Part shown: positions 41,320 to 55,530 of the stretch, one piece after another
How the letters are laid out: each line of letters begins with the position of its first letter
Numbering within the stretch: the first letter of the stretch is position 1
Origin: Streptomyces sp. MMG1121
Lineage (GTDB): Bacteria > Actinomycetota > Actinomycetes > Streptomycetales > Streptomycetaceae
Length of the DNA stretch: 64,000 nucleotides
Direction: 5' to 3'
Assembly (NCBI RefSeq): GCF_001280015.1
Contig: NZ_LGDV01000201.1
Coordinates: 310,001 to 374,000, forward strand
Position numbers and translations under genes: made by a program
The notes under the pieces: model-generated
What the model saw: only the letters and a program-made list of their open reading frames with translations
Told to the model about the DNA's origin: nothing
Databases searched by the model: none

Positions 41320-44300
41320 GGGGCTGTTCCCTGAATGCTGAGATCCTTGGTCACGTGATGCAGACGGTGCACTACGCCGTATTCTTCCCTGCGGTCAAGC
41401 CCCAGTCGATTCGCGTGCATATGCACGAGACTGGTGGCGATTTCCGCGACTGTGGAAGTCAGGCCGCCTGCTCGGTCAAGGGCGTTCAGCTCCTGGCCGA
41501 TAGGGTCGAGTGCGGTATACAGCCGCAGCCGCCAGGAATCGAGGAATGATCCCTGACACAGTGCGGCATGACTGTCGGACAATAGCGTTCGCAACAGTGG
41601 TCGACGAATATGAAGTTCCCGGTTGAGGGTCTTTCGCGAGACTGTCGGATCGTCCGAGAACTCGCGGGCGTAGGACAGCTGCATAGTGTTGTAGACGTCG
41701 TTGCGAGTGTCGATGTCGAGGCCCAGAGACTTCAGCAGCACGTCGGTGCTGAAGGCCGCAATGTCATACTGATCGACGTCCGGCACAGTATTCAGCAGCT
41801 CCGGGGTCACATGGAGGAGATCTACCGCCTCCGGGCTCTCCGCACAGAACACCCGCTCGCACAGCGCCAGGCCGGCGAGCCCTCCGTAGCGTTCGATTTC
41901 ACGCTCGTAGCCGGTTATCTCGAAACGGTTGATGGCATCGCTGTCCACCAGCTGGGTCAACGCATCCAGCACACCATCCGGGAGTGCGCTGTCGCCTCGG
42001 ACTCGCAGCCGAAGGTGCGGCAGTGGGTCGGCGTAACGGACGAAAAACCATTCCTGGTCGGCCAGTACGTTGCGCAGGGTAGTGAGAGTGTCCTGAGAAA
42101 AGTCGGGCGAGCCATAGAGTTTGAAGAACCACCATCCCTCCCCCGGAAGGCTCAAGCGCTCCCGGCGACCGGCATCGACACTGGTGCGCTTCCGGGGTCG
42201 AGGAACGGGCTCCGGATCGACCGCACGCAGCGATACCACCGCCTCGAGGAGGTACCCGTCACCGTGAGCATCGCGAGCTGCGGCATGCCCGAGGCCGGGC
42301 AGCGCCTCTTCCACCGCGGTCACTCCCTGACGCATCTGGTGCCGGAGCAGTTCCACGTGCAGCGGGTGATCGAGGTCGAGTAACAGCCGATTGTCGAGCT
42401 GTCCGGTATATACATGGCGGGAAACGTTCCATTCGCGGCGCCAACGTTCCAGCTCCGCCCGGGACGCAGATTCGCTGCCGACACCTTCGGGAATGCGCCA
42501 GCGCGCCGGTGCAAGCACGACGCGCCCTCTGCGGATCCGGGGCAGGAACGGAAGTCGTTCCATTCCTCCCCAGCCCCAGACAGGGCGCCAATAGCCATCC
42601 TCGGAGACCTCGAGCACAAACCGGATCGGATTGGGAGAATAAGTCGGAGTCAGCATGTGTGCCGCCCGCACCACAATGCGTCGTCCAAGCTTTTGTGAAC
42701 GCAGATACAGCCGTCCCTCTGCAACGCCGACCACCAGGTCAGCGAGTTCTACACGCCGATCACGGGGACCGCTCGCCGTTGTCGATACCGCCAGCTCGTA
42801 TTCGTGGACCCGGGGGGCCAGGGCCACATTGTTCACGTGCCCGTCGGGATGTACGTAGCTGAGGTCCGCGAAGACGACGTCAGGGTTGGCCGCCTGCTCG
42901 TGACAGGCCAGTTCCACGACATGGTCGTTGAATCGCTGGTCAAGATAGGCGAAACGCCCGAAAGCCCGGCCGCCAGGGAAGACTGCCCCGCCCCCGGGGC
43001 CGAGGACGGCCTGCCAATCTCCGTCTGGTTGTGCGGCGACCATGAGAAAAGCGTCCACTGACGGTGGCGGCTCGCCCTCCGGAAATCCAAGATCGAGGAG
43101 ATGTTCCGAGACTATTTCCACCTCGTGAACGCCATCCTTGAGAGCTGATCCGACGAGATCGTGGAGCAGGGCGTCCCGCTGCCTTGTAGCTTGCTGGGCA
43201 ACCGGCCAGTTTCGCCTCGGCGATGGGTTGCGGAAGTCGGCTGGAGGGCCGATCCCGACTTGTTCGTCGAGCACTTCAAGAAGTGGAACCTCCCGCTCAC
43301 CGTATCGGCTGACGAATTCGCCGGAATATGCCTGAAGTGCAGGGGAGCGGGCTGGCATGGGACTGAGTCGGAACAAGCAGTCCAGCGCGGATTCCGTTTC
43401 CGCTTTCAACTCTGCGGGCAGTGTCCCGGAGAGCGATATCCGCATGTCCGCCTGCAGGTGATTTTGAGACCGGCCAGGCCCCGTAACATTGAGTCGACCC
43501 AGTAGTGAGCGCAGTTCACCGATTCCGTCCCCCACCTTCTGGTTCGCATACGTGTCGATGGACTCTGCCAGGTACCGACTCTGCCGAAGTGTGGGAATTC
43601 GGGTCTTCGGTGCTTCCGCGAGCAGGTAGGACAGCGGGTCGGATCCATCCATGGGAGGTCGCAGCGTGCTCAACAGGAGATTGTTCTCGAGAAGCGTGGA
43701 GAGAAAACGCGTCAGGGCGTCCTCGGTGACCTGTGGGTAGGCCCTTTCCAATCTGTCACGAAGAGCTGAGAACTGAATGGCTTCCTGGGCCCATGCCAGA
43801 ACCTTCTTGACGGGGTCGGTGCAGCGGATCGATACTCGCTTTCCGCCGTCCTGGTCCCCGCGAGCGTCGCCGTGCATGAGATGGACACGCTCTCCCCGTA
43901 GCAGCAGGGCAGAATTCCGGTAGACCCAGAGGTACGACTGCGCGCCAGGGTCGCGCTCCAGGCCATGGACGAGTTTCAGCACTTCGCCGTAGTCCAGTCG
44001 GACCGGGCGGTGATGTTCCGTGGGGTTGCCCAGCTCGATATCGAGTTCTGGCCCCCAGCCGACGGGGGCGACTCCGCTGAACATGCCGAACGGTGTGGGA
44101 CGTGTCGTCGACCGCACCACGTAGCGAGCCAATGCCGTTACGATGCGCCGCTGCTGTTTGGTCGAAAACGCGCTGGGGCTCTGGAAGAACTTCTCCGCAT
44201 CTTGCGCGAGGGACGGACTGGCAAACCACACCGCCTCCCTGAACGCCGGATCTTCAAAGGCGGTTCGCAACCCTTTCGTCGTCTCGGTCTGCGGAGCGAA

Positions 44301-44405
44301 GGCCGCAGAGTAGGACCGGACGGACAGGAGCGGGGCGCGGACCATCGCCGTGGATGCCGCAACGTAGTTGGTTGTCGCCGGAATTGATTTTTCGGTCCGC
44401 GTCAA
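41316..44405 (-). CDS. lanB: Full-length lanthipeptide dehydratase LanB
   Basis: A 1029-residue class I dehydratase. The N-terminal part is the glutamylation domain (RAPLLSVRSYSAAF, then STRPTPFGMFSGVAPVGW, the TPFG-x-F signature). The C-terminal 300 residues form the SpaB-C elimination domain (WWFFKLYGSPDFSQDTLTTL, then FFVRYADPLPHLRLRV). It uses Glu-tRNA to dehydrate Ser/Thr in the precursor. TTG 44405 is chosen because AAAAGGG lies seven bases before it; another in-frame TTG at 44453 lies against the upstream hairpin. It follows the precursor gene across a 115-bp gap containing a hairpin. Confidence 0.92.
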   Translation of the reverse strand: MTRTEKSIPATTNYVAASTAMVRAPLLSVRSYSAAFAPQTETTKGLRTAFEDPAFREAVWFASPSLAQDAEKFFQSPSAFSTKQQRRIVTALARYVVRSTTRPTPFGMFSGVAPVGWGPELDIELGNPTEHHRPVRLDYGEVLKLVHGLERDPGAQSYLWVYRNSALLLRGERVHLMHGDARGDQDGGKRVSIRCTDPVKKVLAWAQEAIQFSALRDRLERAYPQVTEDALTRFLSTLLENNLLLSTLRPPMDGSDPLSYLLAEAPKTRIPTLRQSRYLAESIDTYANQKVGDGIGELRSLLGRLNVTGPGRSQNHLQADMRISLSGTLPAELKAETESALDCLFRLSPMPARSPALQAYSGEFVSRYGEREVPLLEVLDEQVGIGPPADFRNPSPRRNWPVAQQATRQRDALLHDLVGSALKDGVHEVEIVSEHLLDLGFPEGEPPPSVDAFLMVAAQPDGDWQAVLGPGGGAVFPGGRAFGRFAYLDQRFNDHVVELACHEQAANPDVVFADLSYVHPDGHVNNVALAPRVHEYELAVSTTASGPRDRRVELADLVVGVAEGRLYLRSQKLGRRIVVRAAHMLTPTYSPNPIRFVLEVSEDGYWRPVWGWGGMERLPFLPRIRRGRVVLAPARWRIPEGVGSESASRAELERWRREWNVSRHVYTGQLDNRLLLDLDHPLHVELLRHQMRQGVTAVEEALPGLGHAAARDAHGDGYLLEAVVSLRAVDPEPVPRPRKRTSVDAGRRERLSLPGEGWWFFKLYGSPDFSQDTLTTLRNVLADQEWFFVRYADPLPHLRLRVRGDSALPDGVLDALTQLVDSDAINRFEITGYEREIERYGGLAGLALCERVFCAESPEAVDLLHVTPELLNTVPDVDQYDIAAFSTDVLLKSLGLDIDTRNDVYNTMQLSYAREFSDDPTVSRKTLNRELHIRRPLLRTLLSDSHAALCQGSFLDSWRLRLYTALDPIGQELNALDRAGGLTSTVAEIATSLVHMHANRLGLDRREEYGVVHRLHHVTKDLSIQGTAP

Positions 44406-44454
44406 TCCAGTACCCTTTTGTGGCTCGATCGGTGATCCGCGCCGCGCCCCCAAG

Positions 44455-44484
44455 AGGGCCGGGGAACCTCTTGTCCCCGACCCT
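44455..44484 (-). terminator. Attenuator-like hairpin between lanA and lanB
   Basis: AGGGCCGGGGA and TCCCCGACCCT (one wobble) with an 8-base loop, 36 bp after the precursor stop. Such hairpins in lanthipeptide operons let the precursor be made in excess of the enzymes. Confidence 0.65.
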
Positions 44485-44520
44485 CAGGGCTCCGTGCGGA
44501 GTCAGACTGTTCCAGTGCTG

Positions 44521-44673
44521 CTAGCAGCCGAACACGGTCGGCGAGCACGGGCCGGTGATGCCCGGGGTCTTCTGGGCAGCGGCCTCCTCGGCCTTCGGGT
44601 ACGTCTCCGTGCGGATGTCCAGGTCGAACTGGTTGGTGTCCACGGTCGTCACGATGGTCTCCATCTGGTGCAT
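44521..44673 (-). CDS. lanA: Class I lanthipeptide precursor (FxLD-type leader)
   Basis: A 50-residue peptide, MHQMETIVTTVDTNQFDLDI at the N-terminus and TPGITGPCSPTVFGC at the C-terminus. GAGGAAATC precedes ATG 44673. FDLD at residues 16-19 matches the FNLD/FxLD box that LanB and LanC recognise in class I leaders. The core has only two cysteines (43, 50) and Thr40, Ser44 and Thr46 as ring partners. A small MeLan between Thr40 and Cys43 and a second ring to Cys50 are likely. The leader end is uncertain; cleavage after AAAQ would leave a 16-residue product. It lies directly upstream of lanB and lanC. Confidence 0.9.
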   Translation of the reverse strand: MHQMETIVTTVDTNQFDLDIRTETYPKAEEAAAQKTPGITGPCSPTVFGC

Positions 44674-44770
44674 GATTTCCTCTCTGGTGTTTCTGTTTTC
44701 GTGAAATGAATTCAGCGCCCCGCGACTGTCGGCAATGCCGTTCTGGGGCGCCGGGCCCCGCCGCGCGCGC

Positions 44771-45229
44771 TCACTCGTGGGCGCGGCCGCGGGCGTATGT
44801 GTACGAGGCGAGCAGGATCTGCCAGGCCACCTCGATCTCGTCCCGGTCGCGCGGGCCGAAGAGCAGCAGGGTGTTCTGTATGGGGTGCGGGATCCCCCAG
44901 CCCAGGTCGGTGACGTGCTTCTTGGCCGCCGGAGGCAGGGTGAGGTGCACGCTGCCGTCCTGCGGCGGGTGCTGGTGGGCGAACTCGCGGCTGTGCCGGA
45001 TGAAGGCGTCGTCGGGTCCGGTGCCGAACTCGGGGGCCAGGTGGATGGCGCGGGCCTCGGGGTAGGGCACATGGGTGGGGGCGAGGTAGACGCCGCTGAG
45101 CGACCGCATGCGCTGCCAGAACTCCTCCTGGAGCGGCGTAGGGGCGATCTGGTCCAGCTGGCCGTGGGGCACCGGGCCGCGGGTGCGGGGGGCCGGGCCG
45201 GGACGGTCGGGAAGGTTCAGGAGGGACAT
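44771..45229 (-). CDS. DUF5519 (luciferase-domain-like) family protein
   Basis: A 152-residue soluble protein matching the DUF5519 pattern: DGSVHLTLPPAAKKHVTDLGWGIPHPI, then TLLLFGPRDRDEIEVAWQILLASYTYARG. ATG 45229 follows AAAGGAAAGCG. It is the first gene of the minus-strand transcript leading into lanA, 97 bp away, and is divergent from a MarR gene. The family has no established reaction. A role in precursor handling or self-protection is possible but not shown by the sequence. Confidence 0.78.
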   Translation of the reverse strand: MSLLNLPDRPGPAPRTRGPVPHGQLDQIAPTPLQEEFWQRMRSLSGVYLAPTHVPYPEARAIHLAPEFGTGPDDAFIRHSREFAHQHPPQDGSVHLTLPPAAKKHVTDLGWGIPHPIQNTLLLFGPRDRDEIEVAWQILLASYTYARGRAHE

Positions 45230-45246
45230 CGCTTTCCTTTCATCAT

Positions 45247-45274
45247 TACGACATCGAACGGTTCTCGGCTAGGC
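45247..45274. promoter_or_regulatory. MarR promoter with GAAC-G-GTTC operator
   Basis: TTACGA, 18 bases, TAGGCT form a plausible promoter for the MarR gene. The spacer holds ACATCGAACGGTTC (45251-45264), whose GAAC-G-GTTC core is an inverted repeat. A nearly identical string, ACATCGAACAGTTC, occurs at 53441-53454 in the promoter of the other operon. Autorepression by MarR is likely. Confidence 0.65.
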
Positions 45275-45281
45275 TCGGAGC

Positions 45282-45764
45282 ATGGAGGAGAAGCTCTCGA
45301 ACGCTCCCGCGCTGGTGGAAGGTGCTGTCGCCCTGCCGGTCATCGACCGGCTGCTGCACGTCTCACGCCAGGCAGAGCTGCGCTTCGGCCGCACGTGCTC
45401 CCGCTTCGGGCTGCAGGCCTGGGAGTTCGACGTGCTCACCACGCTGCGCACCCAGTCGCCGCTCCACGAGATGTGCCCGGGGACCATCGCCGACCGGCTG
45501 CTCGTCTCGAACAGCACCATGACCAATCGTGTCAACCGGCTGGAGAAGGCCGGTCTGGTCGAGCGCCGGCTGAGTCCGGAGAACCGGCGCATCGTGATCG
45601 TCCGGCTCACCGACAAGGGCCGCGAGGTCGTCGACCAGGTGATCGCCGCCCGGAAGCAGACCGAGCGCGAGGTGCTCGGCCGCGGGCTCTCCGAGGAGGA
45701 GTCGAGCCAGCTGTCCGCGCTCCTCGGCAAGCTCGACACGGCGCTCGTCAGCCACGATTCGTGA
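45282..45764 (+). CDS. MarR family regulator
   Basis: A 160-residue winged-helix MarR protein with recognition region GTIADRLLVSNSTMTNRVNR LEKAGLVERRLSPENRRIVIVRLTDKG (about residues 68-115). It is divergent from the DUF5519/lanA transcript and convergent with the flavin reductase gene, whose 3' end overlaps its own by 17 bases. The operator in its own promoter recurs before the GlcG-like gene, so it may control both halves of the pathway. Confidence 0.9.
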   Translation: MEEKLSNAPALVEGAVALPVIDRLLHVSRQAELRFGRTCSRFGLQAWEFDVLTTLRTQSPLHEMCPGTIADRLLVSNSTMTNRVNRLEKAGLVERRLSPENRRIVIVRLTDKGREVVDQVIAARKQTEREVLGRGLSEEESSQLSALLGKLDTALVSHDS

Positions 45765-46263
45765 GTTCCAGGCGCTCGTAGCGCCTGCCGTGGTAGATCA
45801 GCGGCTCACCGGGCGCGGTGCGCACCGCACGGACGTCGAGCAGCAGGACGCTGTGGTCGCCCGCGTCGATCGTGCGCACGCGTCGGCACTGGACGGCGGC
45901 CAGCGCGCCCGGCAGCACCGGGGCCAGGCCGTCGGCGCACTCGAAGCCCGTGCCGGCGAACTTGTCGTCGACGGGCGCCGCGAACCGCTCGGCCACCGGC
46001 CGCTGCCGGGCCGCCAGCATGTTGACCGCTACCGGCCCGGCCCCGGCGAAGAGCTCGTACGAGCGCGAGGACTTGGCCTGGCAGACCAGCATCATCGGCG
46101 GGTCCAGCGAAACGGACGTGACGGACGTGGCGGCGAAGCCGTACGGCACTCCGTCGGGCCCCGTGGTGGTCACCACGCACACGCCGCCGGCCAGCGCGGC
46201 CATCGCGTCCTTGAAGTGCGCCTCCAGGTCGTCGGACGGCGCGAGCAGCGATCCCCGGCTCAT
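45748..46263 (-). CDS. Flavin reductase (HpaC/VlmR-type)
   Basis: A 171-residue flavin reductase-like split-barrel protein: DAMAALAGGVCVVTTTGPDG, then GFAATSVTSVSLDPPMMLVCQ and GDHSVLLLDVRAVR. It makes reduced FMN or FAD for a two-component monooxygenase. ATG 46263 overlaps the amidohydrolase stop, and it is the last gene of a coupled operon that also holds an acyl-CoA-dehydrogenase-fold flavoprotein, its probable partner. Confidence 0.9.
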   Translation of the reverse strand: MSRGSLLAPSDDLEAHFKDAMAALAGGVCVVTTTGPDGVPYGFAATSVTSVSLDPPMMLVCQAKSSRSYELFAGAGPVAVNMLAARQRPVAERFAAPVDDKFAGTGFECADGLAPVLPGALAAVQCRRVRTIDAGDHSVLLLDVRAVRTAPGEPLIYHGRRYERLELTNRG

Positions 46264-47666
46264 CGCTCGGCTCCTGCCGGGACGGGCACCTGCGCCTCGA
46301 GCCAGCGGCCGTCGGGACGGCCGAAGACGGCGGTGCCGTCCGCGCGGCGGGCGTAGACGCTGCGGCCCTGCCGCAGGGTCTGTTCCACGCGGCCGGTGAA
46401 GGTCCAGCCCTCGTAGGCGGACCAGCCGACCTTGGCGTGCGCCTCGTCGGCGCGCAGCCACCAGTTGGTGTCGGCGGAGACGAGGACGAGGTCCGCGTCG
46501 TGGCCCTCGGCCAGGGCGCCCTTGCGGCCTTCGAGGCCGAAGAGGCGGGCCGGGCCCTCCGCCATGACCCGCACGGCGATCTTCAGGGCCTCCTCGGCGT
46601 CGCCGCCGGGCAGCCGTCGGCGCAGTCCGGTGAGCAGCGCGGGGAAGAGTTCCTGCACCCCGGGCAGGCCGGGTGGGGCGTCGGGGGCGGGCAGCGCCTT
46701 GTCGGTGAGGGCGTGCGGGGCGTGGTCGCTGCCCACACTGGCGACCTCGCCACGGATGACGGCCTGCCACAGCCGGTCCTGGTCGGTCTGCTCCCGGATG
46801 GCGGGGCTGAGCCGGATGCGCGGGCCCAGCCGCAGCGTGTCGTCGGTGGTGAAGGAGAGGTGGTGCCCTGTGACCTCGAAGGTGATGGGGATCCCGGCCG
46901 CGCCCGCTGCGGCGAGCAGGTCGGCCTCCTCCTTGCTGGACACGTGCAGGACGTGCACGTCGGTGCCGTGCCTGCGGGCGAGTTCGATGAGCTTGGCGAC
47001 GGCGACGATGCCGCCGCTGCGCGGCCGGTGGGCCTCGTACGAGCGGTAGGACCGGGGTTCGCCCTGCCACTGGTCGAGGAGCGTGAAGACGTCGTCGTCC
47101 TCGGCATGGAAGAGCAGCCGCAGGTTCTTGGCGGCGGCGAGCCGGAAGAGGCCGTCGAGCCGGGCGGGGTCGCGCAGCACGTGCGGGGCGGTGTGGTGGC
47201 CGGTGAGGAAGGCCTTGGCCGAGGTCGCCTCGCGCGGGGTGAACTCGTCGAGGAGCGTGACGTCGTCCGGGTTTACTCCCGCGTGGAAGCGGTAGTCGAC
47301 CAGGCTGTTGCCCTCGATCAGCGCGTGCTTGGCGTGCGCGTCGGCGGGGGTGAAGGTGGCGGGGCGGGTGTTGGGCATGTCGATGACGGTGGTGACAGCA
47401 CCCGCGACGGCCGCCCGCGACCCGTTGGCCCACTCTTCCTTTTCGGTGAGGCCGGGGGTGCGGAAGTGCACATGGGAGTCGATGAGGCCGGGCAGGACGT
47501 ACAGGCCGGAGGCGTCGACCGTCTCGCGTGCCTCGGCGCGCGCGCCGGGCTCCAGGACGGCTGCGATGCGCCCGTCGCGCACGGCGAGGTCGGCACGGGT
47601 GACCTGATGGCCGTCGACGAGCCGGCCGCCGCGGACGAGGAGGTCGTAGGCCGGGGTGTGGTTCAC
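46260..47666 (-). CDS. Dihydroorotase/allantoinase-family cyclic amidohydrolase
   Basis: A 468-residue amidohydrolase. The metal site reads DSHVHFRTPG, the carboxylated Lys is in TSAKAFLTGH, then FHAEDD, HVLHVSSKEE and GSDHAPH. The start is GTG 47666, overlapping the flavoprotein stop (GTGA). These enzymes open or close cyclic imides and ureides such as dihydroorotate, allantoin or succinimides. Since no other pyrimidine or purine catabolic gene is here, ring closure or opening of a pathway intermediate is more likely. Confidence 0.88.
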   Translation of the reverse strand: MNHTPAYDLLVRGGRLVDGHQVTRADLAVRDGRIAAVLEPGARAEARETVDASGLYVLPGLIDSHVHFRTPGLTEKEEWANGSRAAVAGAVTTVIDMPNTRPATFTPADAHAKHALIEGNSLVDYRFHAGVNPDDVTLLDEFTPREATSAKAFLTGHHTAPHVLRDPARLDGLFRLAAAKNLRLLFHAEDDDVFTLLDQWQGEPRSYRSYEAHRPRSGGIVAVAKLIELARRHGTDVHVLHVSSKEEADLLAAAGAAGIPITFEVTGHHLSFTTDDTLRLGPRIRLSPAIREQTDQDRLWQAVIRGEVASVGSDHAPHALTDKALPAPDAPPGLPGVQELFPALLTGLRRRLPGGDAEEALKIAVRVMAEGPARLFGLEGRKGALAEGHDADLVLVSADTNWWLRADEAHAKVGWSAYEGWTFTGRVEQTLRQGRSVYARRADGTAVFGRPDGRWLEAQVPVPAGAER

Positions 47667-48787
47667 AGGGTCCACGCGGTGCTCACCAGCTCCCTTGCGA
47701 GGTCGTTCGTCGGTCCCATGAGCGCCACGGCGCGGGCGTCGCGGGCCATGCGGTTGATGGGGTTGGAGATCACATAGCCGGCGCTGCCGAGCAGCCGGGC
47801 GAGGGTCTGTACGACCTCCTCGGCGACCTCGCCGGCGAAGATCTTGCTGTGGAGCGTGACCGCGCCGGGGTCGGGGGCGTCGCACCGCCCGGCCCGCTCG
47901 ACGAGGGCGCGCGCGGCCTCGATGCGGGTGCGGACCTCGGTGAGGCGGAAGCGCAGGCCCTGGTGGTCGAGGAAGCCGCGCTTGCGGGCGGCCTCGAAGG
48001 CGTGGTCCCAGGCGGCCTCGGCGATGCCGACGGCGACCGCGCCCAGCGTCGCGCCGGACTGGCGGACGCCGGCGATGACGCGGTTGGCGCCGTCGCGCGG
48101 GCCCAGCATGGCGTCGGCGGGCACCACGCAGTTCTCCAGTTCGATGAAGCCGGTCGCCGAGGCGCGCATGCCGACCAGGTCGAGGCTGGTGTCCGGGGTG
48201 ATGCCGGGGGTGTCGGCGGGGATGAGGAAGAAGCTCTGGCCGGTGGAGCCGTAGACCTCGCCGTCGTCCTCGACCTGGGTGGTCTGGGCGAGCACGAGGT
48301 AGACGTCGGCGAGGCCCGCGCCGGTGGTGAAGGCCTTGCCGCCGCTGATCGACCAGCTGCCGTCGGGCAGTTCCTCGGCGATGGTGGCGAGGTTGCGCTT
48401 GGCGGCACCCGCGCCCGACTCGCTCCAGGCGGAGGCGGCGAGCCACTCGCCGGAGGCGAGCTTGGGCAGCAGGTCGCGCTGCTGCTCGGCGGTGCCCCAC
48501 TCGACGATGCGGCTGGAGACAGCCAGGTGCTGGAAGACGATGATGGCCGTGGACGGGTCGTGGCGGGCTATCTCGGCGATGCGCCGGTTGACCGCCAACT
48601 GCTCGGCCCCTGCCCCGCCGAGGTGGGTGGGCGCCACGAGGCCGGTGACGTCCGAGGCACGGACGGCCGCCAGCACCTCGGGGGACGGCCTGCCCTCCCG
48701 GTCGGCCGCCGCCGCGTGCTCGGCGAGGGCGGTGAGCAGGGTCTCGCGGCCGGTCGCCGGGGTGTCGCTGAGTTCAGCGGTGGGCAT
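47663..48787 (-). CDS. Acyl-CoA-dehydrogenase-fold flavoprotein lacking the catalytic Glu
   Basis: A 374-residue protein of the acyl-CoA dehydrogenase fold (WLAASAWSESGAGAAKRNLAT, ISGGKAFTTGAGLADVYLVLA, GMRASATGFIELENCVVP). The C-terminal YEGTSEI motif of dehydrogenases, which carries the catalytic Glu, reads LMGPTNDL here, so Glu is replaced by Gly. That, plus a flavin reductase in the same operon, suggests a group D flavin-dependent monooxygenase such as an N-hydroxylase of the isobutylamine hydroxylase kind. It starts at ATG 48787, overlapping the PrpF-like gene by 14 bases. Confidence 0.87.
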   Translation of the reverse strand: MPTAELSDTPATGRETLLTALAEHAAAADREGRPSPEVLAAVRASDVTGLVAPTHLGGAGAEQLAVNRRIAEIARHDPSTAIIVFQHLAVSSRIVEWGTAEQQRDLLPKLASGEWLAASAWSESGAGAAKRNLATIAEELPDGSWSISGGKAFTTGAGLADVYLVLAQTTQVEDDGEVYGSTGQSFFLIPADTPGITPDTSLDLVGMRASATGFIELENCVVPADAMLGPRDGANRVIAGVRQSGATLGAVAVGIAEAAWDHAFEAARKRGFLDHQGLRFRLTEVRTRIEAARALVERAGRCDAPDPGAVTLHSKIFAGEVAEEVVQTLARLLGSAGYVISNPINRMARDARAVALMGPTNDLARELVSTAWTL

Positions 48788-49823
48788 AGGGGAGCGCCTC
48801 CTTCTGCGCGTACGGCTGGAGCCGTTCGAGGGTGAGCGAGCCGGTGAACTCCACGGACTTCTGCGCGACGCTCACCCAGGCGAGGGTGTCCGCGGGCGTG
48901 TTCCCGGTGACCGCGGCGCGCACGGCGGTGGTGCCGCCCGCGGTGCGGATGGTGAGCGGGGCGCCGGGGACGGCGGCGCTGCCGGCCAGCGCGTACGGAA
49001 CCGTGCCGACCATCTTGCTCGCCGCGCCGACGCAGACCGCCCCGGTGAGGGCGATGGTGGGGTGCCAGGTCGGCACGGAGATGGCGCGGACGGCGATGGT
49101 GCCGTCGCCGTCGGGCAGCAGGGCCGCGATCTTCGGGAAGGCCCCGCCGCGGGGCAGCCCGTAGACGTCGGCGGCTGCGCTGCGGATCTGCTGGAGCACC
49201 TCGAAGAGCCGCGGGTCGTCGGTGAAGAGCTGGTCGGCGTCGCGCACGCCGAGGTCGGCGGCGTTGACGAAGACGTAGGGGTTGCTCACCGACACGCAGC
49301 TCGCAGTGATGCTGCCGTCCTCGTAGACGAGCGAGGTGGTGGGCCCGCCGCCGTAGGTGAGGGCGTCCAGGCACACGGCCGGGTGGTGCATGAAGTGGGC
49401 GGTGAAGGTGGCGCGGTCGCGCTCGCAGTCGTCGACCTCGCACACCACGTGGTCGCCGTTGTTGAGAACGTTGACCCGCACCCGGTGGTCGGGGGCGAGT
49501 CGGTGCACCCAGCCGAGGCGACTGGCGACCATCACCGAGGAGAGCACCGAGTGGCCGCAGCTGCCGTGGAAGTCGAAGCGCGGCTCGGTCCCCGGCATGA
49601 CCTGCACGAAGCGGTAGTCGATGTCGAACAGGGGGTGCCTGGAGGGCGCGATGAGCGCGATCTTGGTGATCTTCTCCAGGCCGCCGCCGTGCTCGGCGAG
49701 GTGGCGCACGGCCTCGCGCAGTGCGGGCTCCAGCTCCTCCTCGCGCTCGGGCAGCGCGTCGGCGGGCAGGGTCAGGGTGGGGCTGGGACTGCCCTTTGCG
49801 TAGGCGATATGGGCTTGTATCAC
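48774..49823 (-). CDS. PrpF-family (2-methylaconitate isomerase-like) protein
   Basis: A 349-residue two-domain protein of the DapF/PrpF fold. It shows FDFHGSCGHSVLSSVMVASRLGW (first-lobe Cys motif) and AISVPTWHPTIALTGAVCVGAASKMVGT (second lobe). PrpF moves a double bond or inverts geometry in unsaturated di- and tricarboxylates, using a Lys/Cys base. GTG 49823 has GGGAGG upstream and overlaps the asparagine-synthetase stop. There is no 2-methylcitrate-cycle gene nearby, so a biosynthetic role fits better. Confidence 0.87.
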   Translation of the reverse strand: MIQAHIAYAKGSPSPTLTLPADALPEREEELEPALREAVRHLAEHGGGLEKITKIALIAPSRHPLFDIDYRFVQVMPGTEPRFDFHGSCGHSVLSSVMVASRLGWVHRLAPDHRVRVNVLNNGDHVVCEVDDCERDRATFTAHFMHHPAVCLDALTYGGGPTTSLVYEDGSITASCVSVSNPYVFVNAADLGVRDADQLFTDDPRLFEVLQQIRSAAADVYGLPRGGAFPKIAALLPDGDGTIAVRAISVPTWHPTIALTGAVCVGAASKMVGTVPYALAGSAAVPGAPLTIRTAGGTTAVRAAVTGNTPADTLAWVSVAQKSVEFTGSLTLERLQPYAQKEALPYAHR

Positions 49824-51634
49824 GCCGCCTCCCTCGTCGGGAGCGCGGTGGTGCGCAGGGCGCCGAGCTGCTCCCGCCAGATCTGGTGGACCATCAGCGA
49901 CCAGATGGCCAGCGCGCTGGTGTCGCTGGGCCGCTCGATCTGGCTGCTGATGAGGTTCTGCACGGCCGCGGCATCGAGCTGTCCCCCGGCGCGCAACGCG
50001 GCGGGCGACAGGGTCTCCTGGGCGTGCTCCAGCAGCGCCTCGCCGGGCCGCAGCATCGCGGTGATGGGCAGGGTGAAGGGCTGCTTGGGCCGGTTGAGGA
50101 CGGAGTCGGGCAGCAGTCCGCGGGCCGCCTGGTACAGGGCGCGCTTGCCCTCGTGGCCGCGGACGCGGAACTCCTCGCGCAGGCCGAGGGCGAGCCGGGT
50201 CACGGCGGGCTGGCAGAACGGCAGCCGGACCTCCACGGAGCTGGCCATGCTCAGGTGGTCGACACGGCGCAGGTGGTAGGCGGGCAGCCGCTCGTCGACC
50301 TCGAAGGAGGTGATGGCCGCCAGCCGGTCGCCGGTGTCGCCGAACTTCTTGCCGAGGGTGTCGCGCAGGGTCTCGTACGCGCCGCCGTGCTGCTTGAGGT
50401 AGGCGCGGTAGTCGTCGGTGTAGAGCGACTGGCGCAGCTCGCCCGGGACCGCGGCGAGGGCTTCGAGGTAGTTGTGGGCCCAGTCGCCCTCGCCGTCGAG
50501 GAGGGCCTGCTTGATGCGCCCGTACCCGCCGAAGATCTCGTCGGCGGCGTCGCCGGTGACCGCGACCTTGAAGCCGGCGTCGCGCACGGCCTGGAAGAGC
50601 AGGTAGGTGCTGATCGAGATGGGGTCGGCGTTGGGCTGGCCGAGGTGCCAGACGACGTCGCGCAGCAGCTCGGGGAATCGGGCGGGGTCGGCCTCGACCT
50701 GGTGGTAGCGGGTGCCGTGGCGCTGGGCGACCTCGCGGGCGAAGTGCCGCTCGTCGAAGGGCCAGTCGCCCTGGTAGGCGATGTTGAAGCTGGTGAGGTC
50801 GGGCACGGTCTCCGCGAGGAGCGCGGTGACCAGGCTGGAGTCGAGGCCGCCGCTGGTGATCGCGGAGATGGGGACGTCGGCCAGGGCCAGCAGCCGGGTC
50901 TGCTCGCGCAGCACCTCCTGGAGCCGGGCTCCGGCGCTCTCCAGGTCGGTGAACTGCTCGTCGGAGGCGATGTCGTCGCGGCGGACGGTGCGCAGCCCGC
51001 CGGCGGCGGTGAACGAGGCGGTGGTGGCGCGGGGCAGGACCTGCACCGAGTCGACCATCGTCTGCTCGCCGAAGGGGGTCTTGCTGGCGAGGTAGGCGTC
51101 GAGGCCCGGCAGCCAGGGGTCCCAGCCGATGCCCGGCAGCGAGAGCAGGGCGGGCAGCTCGGAGGAGAAGTACAGCGCGCCGCGCTGCCGGTCCCAGCGG
51201 TAGTAGAGGGGCTTCATGCCGGCCTGGTCGGTGGCCAGCACGAGGGTGGGCTCGCGGCGCAGGTCGAGGACGGCGATGGCGAACATGCCGTCGAGGTGCT
51301 CGGCGAAGCCCACGCCGTAGTGGTCGTAGAGCGCCGGGAGGATGCTGCCGTCGCAGTGGTCGTCGAAGGTGTAGCCGAACGACCGCAGCCGGGTGCGGAG
51401 TTCGTCGTGGTTGTAGATCTCGCCGTTGAAGACGACCTTGACGCGCTCGCCCAGAGTGTAGGGCTGGTCGCCGTGGTCGAGGTCCATGATGGCCAGCCGG
51501 TTGTTGCCGAGCGCCCAGCCGTCGCCCGCGGCCTGGTACTGCGCGTCGGGGCCGCCGTGCCGCTGGAGCAGCGCGACCGCGCGCAGGTGGTTCGCGGAGT
51601 GCTCTCCGCCGAAGTGTCCGTAGATCCGGCACAT
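49820..51634 (-). CDS. asnB: Asparagine-synthetase-like glutamine amidotransferase
   Basis: A 604-residue AsnB-type enzyme. Cys2 (MCRIYGHFGG) is the glutaminase nucleophile, with GEIYNHDELR and GMFAIAVLDL in the Ntn domain. The ATP-pyrophosphatase loop ITSGGLDSSLVTALLAE begins near residue 257, and later KVAVTGDAADEIFGGYGR. It activates a carboxylate as acyl-AMP and transfers ammonia. In a secondary pathway such enzymes make amides or close rings. Placement between the cupin and PrpF-like genes argues against a housekeeping role. Confidence 0.9.
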   Translation of the reverse strand: MCRIYGHFGGEHSANHLRAVALLQRHGGPDAQYQAAGDGWALGNNRLAIMDLDHGDQPYTLGERVKVVFNGEIYNHDELRTRLRSFGYTFDDHCDGSILPALYDHYGVGFAEHLDGMFAIAVLDLRREPTLVLATDQAGMKPLYYRWDRQRGALYFSSELPALLSLPGIGWDPWLPGLDAYLASKTPFGEQTMVDSVQVLPRATTASFTAAGGLRTVRRDDIASDEQFTDLESAGARLQEVLREQTRLLALADVPISAITSGGLDSSLVTALLAETVPDLTSFNIAYQGDWPFDERHFAREVAQRHGTRYHQVEADPARFPELLRDVVWHLGQPNADPISISTYLLFQAVRDAGFKVAVTGDAADEIFGGYGRIKQALLDGEGDWAHNYLEALAAVPGELRQSLYTDDYRAYLKQHGGAYETLRDTLGKKFGDTGDRLAAITSFEVDERLPAYHLRRVDHLSMASSVEVRLPFCQPAVTRLALGLREEFRVRGHEGKRALYQAARGLLPDSVLNRPKQPFTLPITAMLRPGEALLEHAQETLSPAALRAGGQLDAAAVQNLISSQIERPSDTSALAIWSLMVHQIWREQLGALRTTALPTREAA

Positions 51635-51648
51635 GGCTGTGCGTTACC

Positions 51649-52440
51649 TCACTTCACGTCAGGGGAGACGCCGGCGGCCTGGTAGAGCGCCGGGTCGAAG
51701 GGGGTAGGCCCGCCGCAGGTGGTGAACGGCTCGGCCTCGGGGCCCGTGTGCGGGTTGCGGGCGCCGTGCGGAATGCCGGGGGGCGCGTACAGGACGTCGC
51801 CGGGGCGGACGTCGTTCCACTGGTCGTGCATATAGAGCTGGCCGATGCCCTCGAAGGCGATGAACGCCTCTTCGCTCTCGGGGTGGACGTGCACATTGAA
51901 GGTCTGGCCCGGCTGCTGGACGCCGCAGTGCAGACACAGTCGCGAGGAGCCGGTGCCCGGCCAGAACACGAAGTTCATGACGGCCCCCTCGCCCTCGGTG
52001 GGTGCCTCGCCGATTCCGGAGAATCCGCGCAGCTGGGTCTCGCTGTCGGTGAGGGCGCCGGTGGTCTTCGGGGACGCGCCCGCGCTCTCGCCGCCGATGA
52101 GCTGGGAGCGCCAGACGTAGGCGGTCAGCCCCTCGTCGCCCGCGGTGAGTTCGAGCGTGCGGCCGGTGGGCGAGTAGAGGGCGGAGGTGCGGCGCAGCTC
52201 GGTGCGCGCGCTGCCGATGTCACCGTGGCCGGATCCGGCGAACACGACGACGACGTTCTCCTCCTCGAAGGACCAGCCCTGCCGCCAGACGGCGTTCGGG
52301 GCGACCTCGACGACGTTGAGCTTGACCTTCTGCGCGCCGATGGCCGGCCCGACGGGCTCGGCGACCCGGCCCCAGTCGAACGTCGAGAATGCGAATTCTG
52401 CACGGCGGACTATCGCGCCCTTGACGGTGTCGGCACCCAC
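51649..52440 (-). CDS. Two-domain cupin protein
   Basis: A 263-residue bicupin. The second domain carries the full metal motif: FNVHVHPESEEAFIAFEG, then DVLYAPPGIPHGARNPH. The first domain (residues 20-120) has only WRQGWSFEEENVVVVFAGSG and seems not to bind metal. GTG 52440 has AGGGAGG upstream. It is the first gene of the minus-strand operon. It may be a metal-dependent isomerase or dioxygenase; the substrate is unknown. Confidence 0.85.
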   Translation of the reverse strand: MGADTVKGAIVRRAEFAFSTFDWGRVAEPVGPAIGAQKVKLNVVEVAPNAVWRQGWSFEEENVVVVFAGSGHGDIGSARTELRRTSALYSPTGRTLELTAGDEGLTAYVWRSQLIGGESAGASPKTTGALTDSETQLRGFSGIGEAPTEGEGAVMNFVFWPGTGSSRLCLHCGVQQPGQTFNVHVHPESEEAFIAFEGIGQLYMHDQWNDVRPGDVLYAPPGIPHGARNPHTGPEAEPFTTCGGPTPFDPALYQAAGVSPDVK

Positions 52441-52455
52441 GCCGAGCCTCCCTTG

Positions 52456-52501
52456 TACTTGACTGGTGCTTGAGCTGCCCTTGACTCGGGCTGGCCCTTG
52501 A
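52456..52501 (-). promoter_or_regulatory. TCAAG direct repeats in the cupin operon leader
   Basis: On the minus strand the heptamers TCAAGGG, TCAAGGG, TCAAGCA and TCAAGTA occur, the last three exactly 11 bp apart. This spacing and sequence are the hallmark of SARP activator sites. They lie very close to the start codon (last repeat 15 bases from GTG). A possible promoter TTGGTG-18-TAGATT sits just upstream of them, so the repeats could also act as an operator. Confidence 0.5.
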
Positions 52502-52536
52502 GAATCTAGGAGGAGAACCGGTCGAACACCAAGGGA

Positions 52537-52550
52537 AATCGCATGCGATT
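52537..52550. promoter_or_regulatory. 14-bp perfect palindrome upstream of the cupin operon
   Basis: AATCGCATGCGATT, in an AT-rich patch just upstream of the proposed -35 box of the cupin operon. It is a likely regulator site; the protein is unknown. Confidence 0.55.
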
Positions 52551-52642
52551 AAGATTTATCCGCGCATGTGAAGGGGCCATTAAATTTCGTTGGCCGGCAG
52601 TATGGCCAAGCGAACGGACAGCGAACACGCGGACATGCGAAA

Positions 52643-52673
52643 AGGGCCATCCCCGCGTTGCGCGGGTGGCCCT
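52643..52673 (-). terminator. Terminator of the tetR gene
   Basis: On the minus strand AGGGCCACCCGCG, loop CAA, CGCGGGGATGGCCCT followed by TTTT. It lies 19 bp beyond the TetR stop. Confidence 0.85.
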
Positions 52674-52691
52674 GACGGAAATTGCAAGCGA

Positions 52692-53276
52692 TTATTCGGG
52701 GATAACCGAAAGAGCGGTGTCGACGATTGATGTGAGCTGCTTCTCATCCGGCACGGAAATACTCATGACGCGCAGCGCCTGAACCATTGCCGTGAGAAAT
52801 CCGGCGAGCGAATCGACATCAGCGTCGGCGGAGATCTCGCCGGCCGCCCTGGCGGCGTGGAGCGCGGCGGCGAAGGCGCCCTTGAGCGCTTCGATCGCGT
52901 CCCGGGCTATACGGGCGGCGCCGTGGTCGTGCGGGACCCGCTCGACCACGGCGCTCACCAGCAGACAACCGGGGCGCTCGGGGGTGCTGAGCGACTGGTC
53001 GATCCGGTCGAGCAGCAGGTCCCGTACGGCCTGCCGGAGCGGGACGCTGCGCAGCAGCTGGGCCTGGAGGTCGTGCGTCGTGAGCTTCACGTAGTGCCGC
53101 AGGGCCTGCGCGTACAGCTCCTGCTTGCTGCCGAACGCGGCGTAGAGCGAGCCCTTCCCGAGACCCGTGGCGGCGCACAGGTCCTGGACGGAGGTGGCCT
53201 CGTAGCCCTGGCGCCAGAAGAGCTCCATGACGGCGCTCAGCACCTCGTCCACGTCGAAGCCTCGGGGTCGTGCCAT
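52692..53276 (-). CDS. TetR/AcrR family regulator
   Basis: A 194-residue TetR protein (MARPRGFDVDEVLSAVMELFWRQGYEATSVQDLCAATGLGKGSLYAAFGSKQELY, residues 1-55) with a TetR_C_16-like ligand domain. It is a close structural relative of the regulator at 26758. It diverges from the GlcG-MFS-tautomerase-oxidase operon, and two ACCG-CT-CGGT operators lie between them. It probably represses that operon, including the MFS exporter, until a pathway compound binds. Confidence 0.9.
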   Translation of the reverse strand: MARPRGFDVDEVLSAVMELFWRQGYEATSVQDLCAATGLGKGSLYAAFGSKQELYAQALRHYVKLTTHDLQAQLLRSVPLRQAVRDLLLDRIDQSLSTPERPGCLLVSAVVERVPHDHGAARIARDAIEALKGAFAAALHAARAAGEISADADVDSLAGFLTAMVQALRVMSISVPDEKQLTSIVDTALSVIPE

Positions 53277-53299
53277 GGCGACGACTGTAGGCAGTTGTG

Positions 53300-53385
53300 G
53301 ACCGCTCGGTCAACCAAGTCCCGCTGCATGGCGGACATTTCGGAACCAGGCGACTGGATCGCGCCAACTTTCTTTACCGCTCGGT
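53300..53385. promoter_or_regulatory. Two TetR operators
   Basis: GACCGCTCGGTC at 53300-53311, close to the TetR start, and ACCGCTCGGT at 53376-53385, just upstream of the -35 box of the divergent operon. Both are perfect palindromes with the same ACCG-CT-CGGT core, a pattern known for this TetR subgroup. Confidence 0.78.
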
Positions 53386-53401
53386 CCACTTCAGGGACGC
53401 C

Positions 53402-53430
53402 TTGACAGCGAGCGACGACACCGCGATAAC
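53402..53430 (+). promoter_or_regulatory. Sigma-70-type promoter of the GlcG-MFS-oxidase operon
   Basis: TTGACA, 17 bases, GATAAC. Transcription should begin near 53437, in front of the GAAC-A-GTTC operator and 75 bp before the GlcG-like start. Confidence 0.7.
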
Positions 53431-53440
53431 GTACATTCCC

Positions 53441-53476
53441 ACATCGAACAGTTCGTCAACGAACTCTGTCTGTTCG
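53441..53476. promoter_or_regulatory. Shared GAAC-A-GTTC operator
   Basis: ACATCGAACAGTTCG contains the perfect palindrome CGAAC-A-GTTCG (53445-53455). It differs by one base over 14 from the site in the MarR promoter at 45251-45264. A second inverted repeat, CGAAC-N7-GTTCG, follows at 53460-53476. The position at or just after the start of transcription suits a repressor. Confidence 0.65.
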
Positions 53477-53511
53477 CTGGACCACCCCCGACCCTTGCGA
53501 GGAGCGCCACC

Positions 53512-53934
53512 ATGCCCAACACCGTCCGCCGAGCCTCCATCAGCAGCGAGCTGGCCCAGAAGATCATCGAGGCTGCCGACGCCGCCGCGCTCGCCACCGA
53601 CAAGCGCTTCGGCATCTCCGTCGTGGACGAGAGCGGCCACCTGAAGGCCTTCCTGCGCCAGGACGGCGCGAAGCTCATCACCCTCCAGGTCTCGCAGGAC
53701 AAGGCCTACACCGCCGCCGCCTCCCAGCTCTCCACCGAGCAGTGGTCGGAGAACCTCAAGAAGGACGAGGTCATCGGCAACGGCGCGCCCACCGGCATCG
53801 CCCGTCTGGTCGCCCTCGGCGGCGGGCTGCCCATCGTGATCGACGGCGAGGTCGTCGGCGCGATCGGTGTCTCCGGCGGCCACTGGACCGACGACGTCAA
53901 GATCGCCGAGGCGGGCCTCACCGTGGTGAGCTGA
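53512..53934 (+). CDS. GlcG/HbpS-type heme-binding-like protein
   Basis: A 140-residue protein of the GlcG/HbpS/DUF336 family: KIIEAADAAALATDKRFGISVVDESGHLKAFLRQDGA, then GLPIVIDGEVVGAIGVSGGHWTDDVKIAEAGL. No signal peptide, unlike secreted HbpS. Family members bind heme, cobalamin or corrinoids or help oxidoreductases. ATG 53512 has GAGGAG upstream. It is the first gene of the plus-strand operon controlled by the divergent TetR. Confidence 0.88.
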   Translation: MPNTVRRASISSELAQKIIEAADAAALATDKRFGISVVDESGHLKAFLRQDGAKLITLQVSQDKAYTAAASQLSTEQWSENLKKDEVIGNGAPTGIARLVALGGGLPIVIDGEVVGAIGVSGGHWTDDVKIAEAGLTVVS

Positions 53935-53957
53935 CCCCTCGACCGACCCCCTGCGCC

Positions 53958-53989
53958 GGCCTCTCCCCGCCCCCTGTCGGGGAGAGGCC
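53958..53989 (+). terminator. Hairpin between the GlcG-like and MFS genes
   Basis: GGCCTCTCCCC, 10-base loop, GGGGAGAGGCC. A perfect 11-bp stem within the operon; it may lower expression of the exporter relative to the GlcG-like gene. Confidence 0.65.
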
Positions 53990-54052
53990 CCCGCCCCGCC
54001 TTCGGCCGGGCCCCCTTCCCGCCCTCGCGCCATTCCTTCGGGAGAAGTCGCC

Positions 54053-55261
54053 ATGCCCATCGCCCTGTTCGTCCTGGGCCTCACCATCTTCGGCCTCGGC
54101 ACCACCGAGTTCATGATCGCGGGCCTGCTCCCCGAGCTGGCCGACGCCTTCGATGTGACGGTCCCCCAGGCGGGCCATCTCATCTCGCTCTTCGCCGTCG
54201 GCGTGACCGTCGGCGCCCCGCTGATCACCGTGCTGGCCTCGCGTGTTCCCCGCAAGGCCACCCTGATCACCCTGTTGGTGATCTTCCTCGCCGGTGAGCT
54301 GGTCGCCGCGACCGCGCAGAGCTACGGCGTGCTCATGGCCGCCCGCCTCATCACCGCCGTCGCACACGGCTCGTTCTTCGGCATCGGCGCCGTGGTCGCC
54401 GCCTCGCTGGTGGAGCCGGCCAAGCGCGCCCGGGCCATCTCCATCATGTTCGGCGGCCTGACCATCGCCACCATCGCGGGCGCCCCGCTCGGCGCGTTCC
54501 TCGGCCAGCACTTCGGCTGGCGCGCCCCCTTCTGGGCCGTCTTCGCCATCGGCGCCGTCGGCCTCGTCGGCGTCATCTCCCTGATCCCGCACCAGCCCCG
54601 CGAGGAGGGCGCGAGCCTGCGCGGCGAGCTGACCGCCTTCCGTCGCGTCAACGTGTGGCTGGCGCTGGCCACCACCCTGCTCAGCCAGGCCTCGCTGTAC
54701 GCCGCGTACACCTACGTCACCCCGCTGCTCACCGACATCACCGGCTTCCGCGAGAGCGCCGTGCCGCTCCTGCTGACCCTCTTCGGCGTCGGCACGTTCT
54801 GCGGCAGCTGGCTCGGCGGCAAGTTCGCCGACCGCAACCTGATGCGCACCCTGTGGATCGGCATGATCCTGCTCGGCGGAATGCTGCTGCTCTTCCAGGT
54901 CACCGCGCACAACAAGGCGGCCATGGTCGTCACCCTCGCGGCCTTCGGCGTCGCCAGCTTCCTCATCAACCCGGGCCTGCAGACCCGGGTGATGAACGAG
55001 GCGGGCGACGCCCCCTCACTGGCCAGCGCCGGCAACATCTCGGCCTTCAACATCGGCAACGCGGTGGGCCCGTGGACCGCCGGCCTGGCCATCTCCGGCG
55101 GCCACGGCTACCTCTCCCCCGCCTGGGTCGGCACGGCCTTCGCGGCCGCCGCCCTGATCACCGCGCTGGCCTCCACCGCCCGCGACGCCTCCGCCCGCCG
55201 CACCGCCGGCGCGCCCGCCCCGGCCGAGGCCGTCACCGCCCCCGCGGCAGCCCAGCGGTGA
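54053..55261 (+). CDS. DHA1-type MFS exporter
   Basis: A 402-residue 12-helix permease of the AraJ/arabinose-efflux group (LGTTEFMIAGLLPELADAFDVTVPQAGHLISLFAVG, then LMAARLITAVAHGSFFGIGAVVAASLV). It is cotranscribed with the GlcG-like, tautomerase and oxidase genes under a divergent TetR, so it most likely exports the pathway product or a toxic intermediate. It is related to, but not a recent duplicate of, the MFS gene at 25408. Confidence 0.9.
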   Translation: MPIALFVLGLTIFGLGTTEFMIAGLLPELADAFDVTVPQAGHLISLFAVGVTVGAPLITVLASRVPRKATLITLLVIFLAGELVAATAQSYGVLMAARLITAVAHGSFFGIGAVVAASLVEPAKRARAISIMFGGLTIATIAGAPLGAFLGQHFGWRAPFWAVFAIGAVGLVGVISLIPHQPREEGASLRGELTAFRRVNVWLALATTLLSQASLYAAYTYVTPLLTDITGFRESAVPLLLTLFGVGTFCGSWLGGKFADRNLMRTLWIGMILLGGMLLLFQVTAHNKAAMVVTLAAFGVASFLINPGLQTRVMNEAGDAPSLASAGNISAFNIGNAVGPWTAGLAISGGHGYLSPAWVGTAFAAAALITALASTARDASARRTAGAPAPAEAVTAPAAAQR

Positions 55262-55307
55262 CCCCCTCACCCGCCTGACAACGCTCCAGCCACCGAAGGG
55301 AATTGCC

Positions 55308-55493
55308 GTGCCCGTCGTCAACGTCGCCCTCTGGAAGGGCAACAGCACCGACCAGCGCCGCGAGCTCGTCACCGAGCTGACCGACTCCGTCGCCCGCATC
55401 GCCGACTGCCCCAAAGAAGCCGTCACCGTCATCCTCACCGAGGTCGAGAGGGACCACTGGGGCAAGGGCGGCCGGCTCGCGAGCGAGCTGTAG
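55308..55493 (+). CDS. 4-oxalocrotonate tautomerase family protein
   Basis: A 61-residue tautomerase. The GTG start is followed by CCC, giving the catalytic Pro1 after Met removal (PVVNVALWKGNSTDQRRELV). The basic residues expected near positions 11 and 39 are partly kept (Arg in TDQRRELV; EVERDHWGKGG at the end). It would move double bonds in an enol/keto intermediate. It lies between the exporter and the BBE-like oxidase. Confidence 0.88.
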   Translation: MPVVNVALWKGNSTDQRRELVTELTDSVARIADCPKEAVTVILTEVERDHWGKGGRLASEL

Positions 55494-55530
55494 GCACACC
55501 AGCGACCGGCCGACCAAGGAGCAGACGACG

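Follow-up and report, generated by a model that had tools for sequence, protein, structure and literature searches.

Six genes at positions 45748..52440 of a 64,000-nucleotide stretch of Streptomyces sp. MMG1121 (contig NZ_LGDV01000201.1, positions 310,001 to 374,000, of the 9.45-Mb assembly GCF_001280015.1; the whole stretch is called the window here, and coordinates count from its first letter) form an operon that we tentatively read, with nearly even chances of being right, as a biosynthetic cassette for a small oxidized nitrogen heterocycle. The operon is real, with all genes on one strand and every junction overlapping or 14 bp apart, and the grouping is more than chance: other genomes, and also a Priestia plasmid, have these genes in the same arrangement, with protein identities of about 45 to 60% in the genomes. 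A biosynthetic role is most likely, rather than a catabolic one, since relatives of the cassette lie beside genes for serine acetyltransferase, CysK-like and ATP-grasp enzymes and exporters and, in three loci, a PsuG-family enzyme. Its chemistry is constrained in type, not identity: amidation, allylic isomerization, imide closure, and flavin oxidation follow from the enzyme families, while the substrate acid, the order of steps, closure over opening of the ring, any coupling, and the product are inferred.

Operon architecture and enzyme signatures

Six-frame translation of the window placed all six genes on the minus strand, as a sequence-only reading of this DNA had proposed. From 5' to 3' they encode a bicupin (51649..52440, 263 aa), whose second cupin domain carries H184, H186, and H225 and whose first has no Pfam match; an AsnB-type glutamine-dependent amidotransferase (49820..51634, 604 aa) with Cys2 and an SGGLDSS loop; a PrpF-family isomerase (48774..49823, 349 aa, GTG start) with K54 and C89; a flavoprotein of the acyl-CoA dehydrogenase (ACAD) fold (47663..48787, 374 aa) with Gly in place of the catalytic Glu; a dihydroorotase-like (DHO) cyclic amidohydrolase (46260..47666, 468 aa, GTG start assumed) with metal ligands and the motifs HVHFR, DMPNT, and DHAPH; and a flavin reductase (45748..46263, 171 aa, ATG start). 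By their coordinates, the five junctions in this order are a 14-bp gap followed by overlaps of 4, 14, 4, and 4 bp. The earlier count of five tight junctions in six was thus right about the five, all of them within the operon; the sixth is the 251 bp separating the bicupin from an upstream TetR gene, which is not tight. Pfam and NCBIfam profiles verified the protein families and agreed with those first assigned from the sequence.

The amidotransferase scores above the curated cut-off of TIGR01536 (330.8 versus 267.1 bits), and its best match in the PDB is 7ylz, a "hydroxyamidotransferase" (3.1e-45). SGGLDS was found in 39 of 40 aligned sequences, the other having a gap, and of the 33 rows (of 40) in which the pattern was read, 29 have Cys2, while the other four have no N terminus. 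One other AsnB match is encoded in the same genome, and because this is just 32% identical and the cassette AsnB has a constant PrpF partner, simple asparagine synthesis was set aside. PrpF passes the PF04303 cut-off (72.2 versus 27 bits); its Cys is conserved in 42 of 42 sequences, and at least 90% of 27 rows have the Lys (locus L066 has Thr). Both positions align with those of solved isomerases, and we take them to be the catalytic pair. Scores below both NCBIfam equivalog cut-offs (34.6 versus 440.55 and 86 versus 440 bits) suggest that this protein is neither methylaconitate isomerase nor 4-oxalomesaconate tautomerase proper.

For the amidohydrolase, 28 of 28 aligned sequences have the full set of metal-ligand motifs as well as HVHFR, DMPNT, and DHAPH. 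The dihydroorotase 2gwn in the PDB reads HFR, PNT, and DHAPH, whereas the allantoinases 3hm7 and 3e74 read HFN or HIS, PLN, and DHSP. In dihydroorotases, the Arg, Asn, and His residues of this HFR/PNT/DHAPH type hold the substrate carboxylate. The protein scores 279.1 bits against the TIGR00857 cut-off of 279.05 and lies below the other dihydroorotase cut-offs among the best 25 of 65 families. With a dihydroorotase-type signature, its pocket looks suited to a carboxylate-bearing ring, despite an allantoinase best match, and allantoinase identity was set aside for the same signature.

The flavoprotein reads LMGPT where true acyl-CoA dehydrogenases read IYEGT, the Glu of which is their catalytic residue. 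MGP is found in 24 of 24 homologues, all of which have Gly in place of Glu, which bears out the description of this protein as a degenerate acyl-CoA dehydrogenase. Its matches are led by acyl-CoA dehydrogenases (1.1e-44) and include the nitrososynthase 3mxl (2.1e-19) and DnmZ, 4zxv (2.8e-16). A structure model (mean pLDDT 85) has an ordinary ACAD fold, and its best 50 Foldseek matches are acyl-CoA dehydrogenases, including one ACAD-fold natural-product enzyme, ColB1. A true fatty-acid dehydrogenase was set aside, as the catalytic Glu is missing and the six-gene operon has no acyl-CoA ligase gene. The bicupin model (mean pLDDT 83) is nearest to ureidoglycine aminohydrolase 4e2q and also resembles oxalate decarboxylase and BacB, a structural likeness that would be compatible with several reactions and does not settle on one.

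Recurrence and settings of the cassette

A search for PrpF across 394 genomes of the window's family gave a match at 1e-3 in 132 and, among the matches listed, 54 places at 2.2e-18 or better, the window's own included. Loci (L numbers) were picked by PrpF similarity, giving 55 in all: the window, L035, 40 genome stretches (L037-L076; 40 of the 53 non-own places listed at 2.2e-18 or better), ten annotated plasmid regions (10 of 19 strong plasmid matches, 94 records in all), and three from another actinobacterial family. L036 has the same length and matches as L037, and the two were counted once. The genes of L037-L076 were called with our own script, and PfkB in L094, the polyketide synthase (PKS) genes in L053, and the third and fourth ATP-grasp genes in L097 were identified by eye. 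Flanks span mostly about 6 to 12 kb, shorter at contig ends, so that absence of a gene means absence within that stretch, and the counts describe this PrpF subfamily only, weaker PrpF relatives lying outside the sample.

In 53 of the 55 loci, the gene immediately upstream of PrpF is AsnB; the exceptions are L066, whose PrpF is also without the Lys, and L074, where the contig begins. The window's operon is one version of this recurrent cassette. An ACAD-like gene is present in 37 loci, all of which also have a DHO gene, while DHO is found in 42 and the bicupin in 22. A flavin reductase was recognized in 29 of the 37 ACAD loci and in none of the other 18, which favors a two-component oxygenase, and a CysK-like gene (50% or more identical to that of L049) gave the same counts, 29 of 37 plus one weak match versus 0 of 18. 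The four core proteins show correlated pairwise identities (Spearman 0.66 to 0.87, 34 to 47 loci per pair), as expected if the cassette travels as a unit, with strain relatedness contributing.

Across these loci, the core occurs in several settings. In setting A (12 loci: L039, L040, L042-L046, L048-L050, L052, and L059), genes for ATP-grasp, serine acetyltransferase, CysK-like and cupin proteins and an EamA exporter precede bicupin-AsnB-PrpF-ACAD-DHO-reductase, and L056 holds a shorter form. Setting B (13 loci, on chromosomes and plasmids) has a TauD-type dioxygenase, an HpcH aldolase, and a CysK-like gene, next AsnB-PrpF-ACAD-DHO, and usually then an FAD monooxygenase; an FMN reductase is present in 10 of the 13, and the order differs in L078. 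Setting C (12 loci: L062, L063, and L067-L076) combines AsnB-PrpF with a short-chain dehydrogenase/reductase (SDR), a MetRS-like protein, and an MshA-like glycosyltransferase, without ring enzymes; a PIG-L deacetylase is present in 11 of the 12, L074 is cut by its contig end and has PrpF without AsnB, and the one glycosyltransferase tested (L073) scores above the MshA cut-off. This setting looks like one that makes a conjugate akin to mycothiol but carrying another acyl group. Setting D (five loci: L051, L055, L061, L064, and L065) has DHO and no ACAD-like gene of at least 40% identity, L061 having a distant 31% match. Setting W, that of the window, L035, and L037, runs from TetR through bicupin to reductase and MarR, with a divergent MFS gene. 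Ten loci are mixed (L053, L056, L057, L060, L066, L077, L081, and L097-L099). A tree built from the four core proteins of 34 loci separates group A from group B and has W branching apart, with the position of L077 weakly supported (0.49).

Genes adjoining the cassette in relatives include those for serine acetyltransferase, an ATP-grasp protein with an L-amino-acid-ligase domain, and exporters. L085 lies beside annotated nonribosomal peptide synthetase (NRPS) genes and L053 beside PKS-like genes. A PsuG-family gene was found in 3 of 55 loci, in L053 and L081 with an HAD-family gene and in L077, the Priestia plasmid, with FMN reductase, ATP-grasp, CysK-like, and serine acetyltransferase genes. 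At the end of the L077 cluster (L077:22911-24002) is a quinone-type dihydroorotate dehydrogenase, which may act in the pathway or serve as a resistant copy of a target. In L053 (L053:12405-17137), the PsuG-HAD pair sits between the cassette and the type II PKS-like genes; PsuG-HAD beside type II PKS genes is an arrangement familiar from alnumycin. Four consecutive ATP-grasp-like genes, two by match and two by eye, lie 3' of the cassette in L097 (L097:12702-17300) and suggest peptide assembly without an NRPS.

The cassette recurs mainly in Streptomyces and relatives, apparently without an assigned product. The closest named PrpF match is from Streptomyces monashensis (96%; records of the source genome itself were possibly omitted). 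Matches were found in 3 of 250 genomes of another actinobacterial family, in a phylum sample of 396 genomes the sole match at 1e-20 was the source genome itself, and a class sample of 394 gave five at 1e-40, four of them in the window's genus, its own genome included. These samples indicate that such PrpF genes are sparse beyond the window's own family. A search of protein sequences returned at least 449 PrpF relatives at 1e-10 among 8000 candidates scored, and those named among the 120 matches listed are called PrpF-type, isomerase, "proline racemase," or "hypothetical."

Flanking and neighboring genes

A convergent MarR regulator gene (45282..45764, + strand) overlaps the end of the operon by 17 bp, and a MarR gene is also found 3' of the flavin reductase in L081. 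Upstream are the TetR regulator (52692..53276, - strand) and a divergent MFS exporter (54053..55261, + strand), whose membership in the unit is uncertain; L035 and L037 have all three genes as well. In the interval separating TetR from the operon, the palindrome AATCGCATGCGATT occurs perfectly at 52537-52550 and as an imperfect copy at 52680-52693, and the two are candidate operators; their number is not above chance, with as many matches in 20 of 100 shuffles. A promoter and terminator scan gave one match of each kind, neither immediately upstream of the bicupin, and Rfam gave none at 44000-56000.

In line with the first reading, no PKS or NRPS was found among the 32 Pfam-scanned of 57 called genes in the window; the longest called gene is a LanB (1009 aa as called, 1045 aa as the full open reading frame). 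There is also no PsuG match in the window. Class I lanthipeptide genes for a LanB dehydratase and a LanC cyclase adjoin the operon at 40024-44673, both conserved in L035 (82 to 84%), with a 49-aa lanthipeptide precursor-like peptide at 44521-44670 that ends in GPCSPTVFGC. Beside the MFS gene, a BBE-type FAD oxidase and an aromatic-ring FAD monooxygenase (55531-58628) are kept in L035 and could modify the operon product. Farther away are an elongation-factor-G-like gene (27478-29565), possibly for ribosome protection or a paralogous factor, and a protein with an Imm49 immunity domain (31402-33051).

Discussion

In the pathway that we propose, AsnB would use ATP and glutamine to amidate one of the carboxylates of a di- or tricarboxylic acid that is unsaturated and probably branched, and the Lys/Cys pair of PrpF would shift or flip its C=C bond. 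The dihydroorotase-like enzyme could then close the amide onto another carboxylate to form a carboxylated cyclic imide comparable to dihydroorotate, which the former acyl-CoA dehydrogenase, with flavin supplied by the reductase, may oxygenate or oxidatively decarboxylate at the ring or its nitrogen. The bicupin would contribute an isomerization, hydrolysis, or oxidation. In relatives, the product may be coupled to alanine derived from O-acetylserine (CysK-like), to further residues (ATP-grasp), or to ribose (PsuG type); CysK-like and PsuG enzymes both accept a nucleophilic partner, as an imide or hydroxypyridine ring would offer. No coupling enzyme was found beside the window operon. Its pathway may therefore end with the ring, or with a derivative of it that neighboring enzymes have modified. 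The oxygenated cyclic amide or imide pathway first suggested for these genes is partly supported: what stands is a coherent, probably biosynthetic set with an amide-forming enzyme, a PrpF-family isomerase, a ring enzyme with a carboxylate-ring signature, and a flavoprotein without the ACAD base. Beyond that suggestion, the cassette is widespread, and its relatives carry possible amino-acid- and ribose-coupling enzymes.

One of the closest known systems is de novo pyrimidine synthesis, in which an amide-bearing dicarboxylate is closed by a dihydroorotase-family enzyme of the same signature, as we propose here. Unlike in that pathway, the amide of the cassette would come from AsnB acting on a carbon chain rather than from carbamoyl phosphate and aspartate, and PrpF and a flavoprotein are added. 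If aconitate were the substrate, the ring would be 2,6-dihydroxypyridine-4-carboxylate, that is, orotate with one ring nitrogen replaced by carbon. A bolder version, rather unlikely in our estimation, casts the whole cassette as early pyrimidine synthesis with carbon in place of nitrogen: AsnB and PrpF would make a carba-analogue of carbamoyl-aspartate from aconitate or a similar tricarboxylate, DHO would close a deaza-orotate, and the former dehydrogenase would remove or oxidize its carboxylate. CysK-like enzymes would then capture the electron-rich ring as an amino acid, or PsuG would do so as a C-nucleoside, yielding a family of pyrimidine antimetabolites.

Other known systems are also close. 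PrpF belongs to the PF04303 fold family of 4-oxalomesaconate tautomerase and PrpF methylaconitate isomerase and has their active-site Lys and Cys, but it falls far below both equivalog cut-offs and has AsnB beside it in nearly every locus. The D-cycloserine pathway resembles those relatives with serine acetyltransferase, CysK-like, and ATP-grasp enzymes, whereas the window operon has none of these beside it and its PrpF is not of the DapF family. With C-nucleoside clusters of the YeiN/PsuG type (showdomycin and minimycin), the likeness is the PsuG-family enzyme in three relatives, two with the HAD gene; by the available text of PMC8724604, known PsuG-type pathways build the base with NRPS enzymes. 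The PsuG of the source genome adjoins a PfkB-like kinase gene (identified by eye), is probably catabolic, and was set aside as a partner acting in trans. Alahopcin and TAN-950A were likewise set aside as products, the available portions of PMC9293202 and PMC9712658 giving only mentions of them. As first suggested, no known cluster with this gene set was found, here in searches of an open-access library; novelty is provisional, since the comparison covered open-access papers, with MIBiG and subscription papers outside its scope.

Several observations weigh against a ring-forming biosynthetic cassette. Overall, the amidohydrolase matches an allantoinase best in the PDB, and its sequence would fit either closing or opening of a ring. 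No flavin reductase was recognized within the stretch examined in eight ACAD loci (L053, L060, L078, L082, L084, L097, L098, and L099), which counts against a two-component oxygenase. The CysK-like protein of L049 exceeds the NCBI cysteine synthase subfamily cut-off (348.3 versus 344.15 bits) and the acetyltransferase of L042 that of EpsC (165.4 versus 150 bits), so such relatives may simply supply cysteine. PsuG is rare, and in L053 the neighboring type II PKS-like genes may own it; the window's clade has neither CysK nor PsuG, so that the coupling seen in relatives may not apply there. Eleven loci have AsnB-PrpF without amidohydrolase or flavoprotein, and a twelfth is cut by its contig end. 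Finally, the loci are not independent, as near-identical pairs show (L079/L086, L049/L050, and L098/L099).

An unlikely alternative that draws on the same enzymes is a hydroxamate route, in which AsnB would work as the hydroxyamidotransferase of trichostatin does, or an amide nitrogen would be hydroxylated by the ACAD-like protein and reductase, giving a (cyclic) hydroxamate or N-hydroxyimide. The nearest solved relative of AsnB, 7ylz, links it to the trichostatin/benzohydroxamate enzymes TsnB6/7/9, and an enzyme of this kind has been documented to transfer hydroxamate in the case of benzohydroxamic acid (PMC13418202, the available portion of which mentions neither PrpF nor dihydroorotase-like genes). 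Although 3mxl and 4zxv are among its matches, the ACAD-like protein is far closer to acyl-CoA dehydrogenases, in its model as in its sequence, and the hydroxylation of nitrogen envisaged in the sequence-only reading loses ground on this account. No Pfam or NCBIfam match of the six operon proteins names a TsnB6/7-type amide oxygenase, though no search was aimed at TsnB6/7.

More improbable is a catabolic operon, in which the amidohydrolase would open an imported cyclic amide or ureide, the flavoprotein and reductase oxygenate it, the bicupin free ammonia, and PrpF feed central metabolism, with MarR or TetR sensing the substrate. PrpF relatives include 4-oxalomesaconate tautomerases, which are known from aromatic catabolism, and the allantoinase match, the ureidoglycine aminohydrolase nearest to the bicupin model, and the MarR gene at the operon end fit the same picture. 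However, the most constant partner of PrpF is an ATP-consuming AsnB with glutaminase and synthetase motifs; AsnB has a single, distant match (32%) elsewhere in the genome; and the relatives lie beside serine acetyltransferase, CysK-like, ATP-grasp, exporter, NRPS (L085), and PKS-like (L053) genes.

A linear or open-ring amide, with AsnB-PrpF as the true core and an amidohydrolase and flavoprotein that tailor and never close a ring, is similarly improbable: AsnB-PrpF does occur with MshA-like, SDR, and MetRS-like ligase genes and no ring enzymes in the 11 loci above (L062, L063, L067-L073, L075, and L076), and these partners also accompany PrpF in L074, but DHO is present in 42 of the 55 loci, with a signature that is invariant in the 28 aligned.

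As a biosynthetic cassette for a nitrogen heterocycle, the operon would matter for more than this strain: at least four distinct settings of its core occur among genomes of the window's family, and the core is also present in another actinobacterial family and on a single plasmid from Bacillota. No PKS or NRPS, the usual flags by which such clusters get noticed, was found among the scanned genes of the window. If a dihydroorotate-like ring is made, the cassette would represent a new route to a heterocyclic warhead, with products predicted in several architectures.

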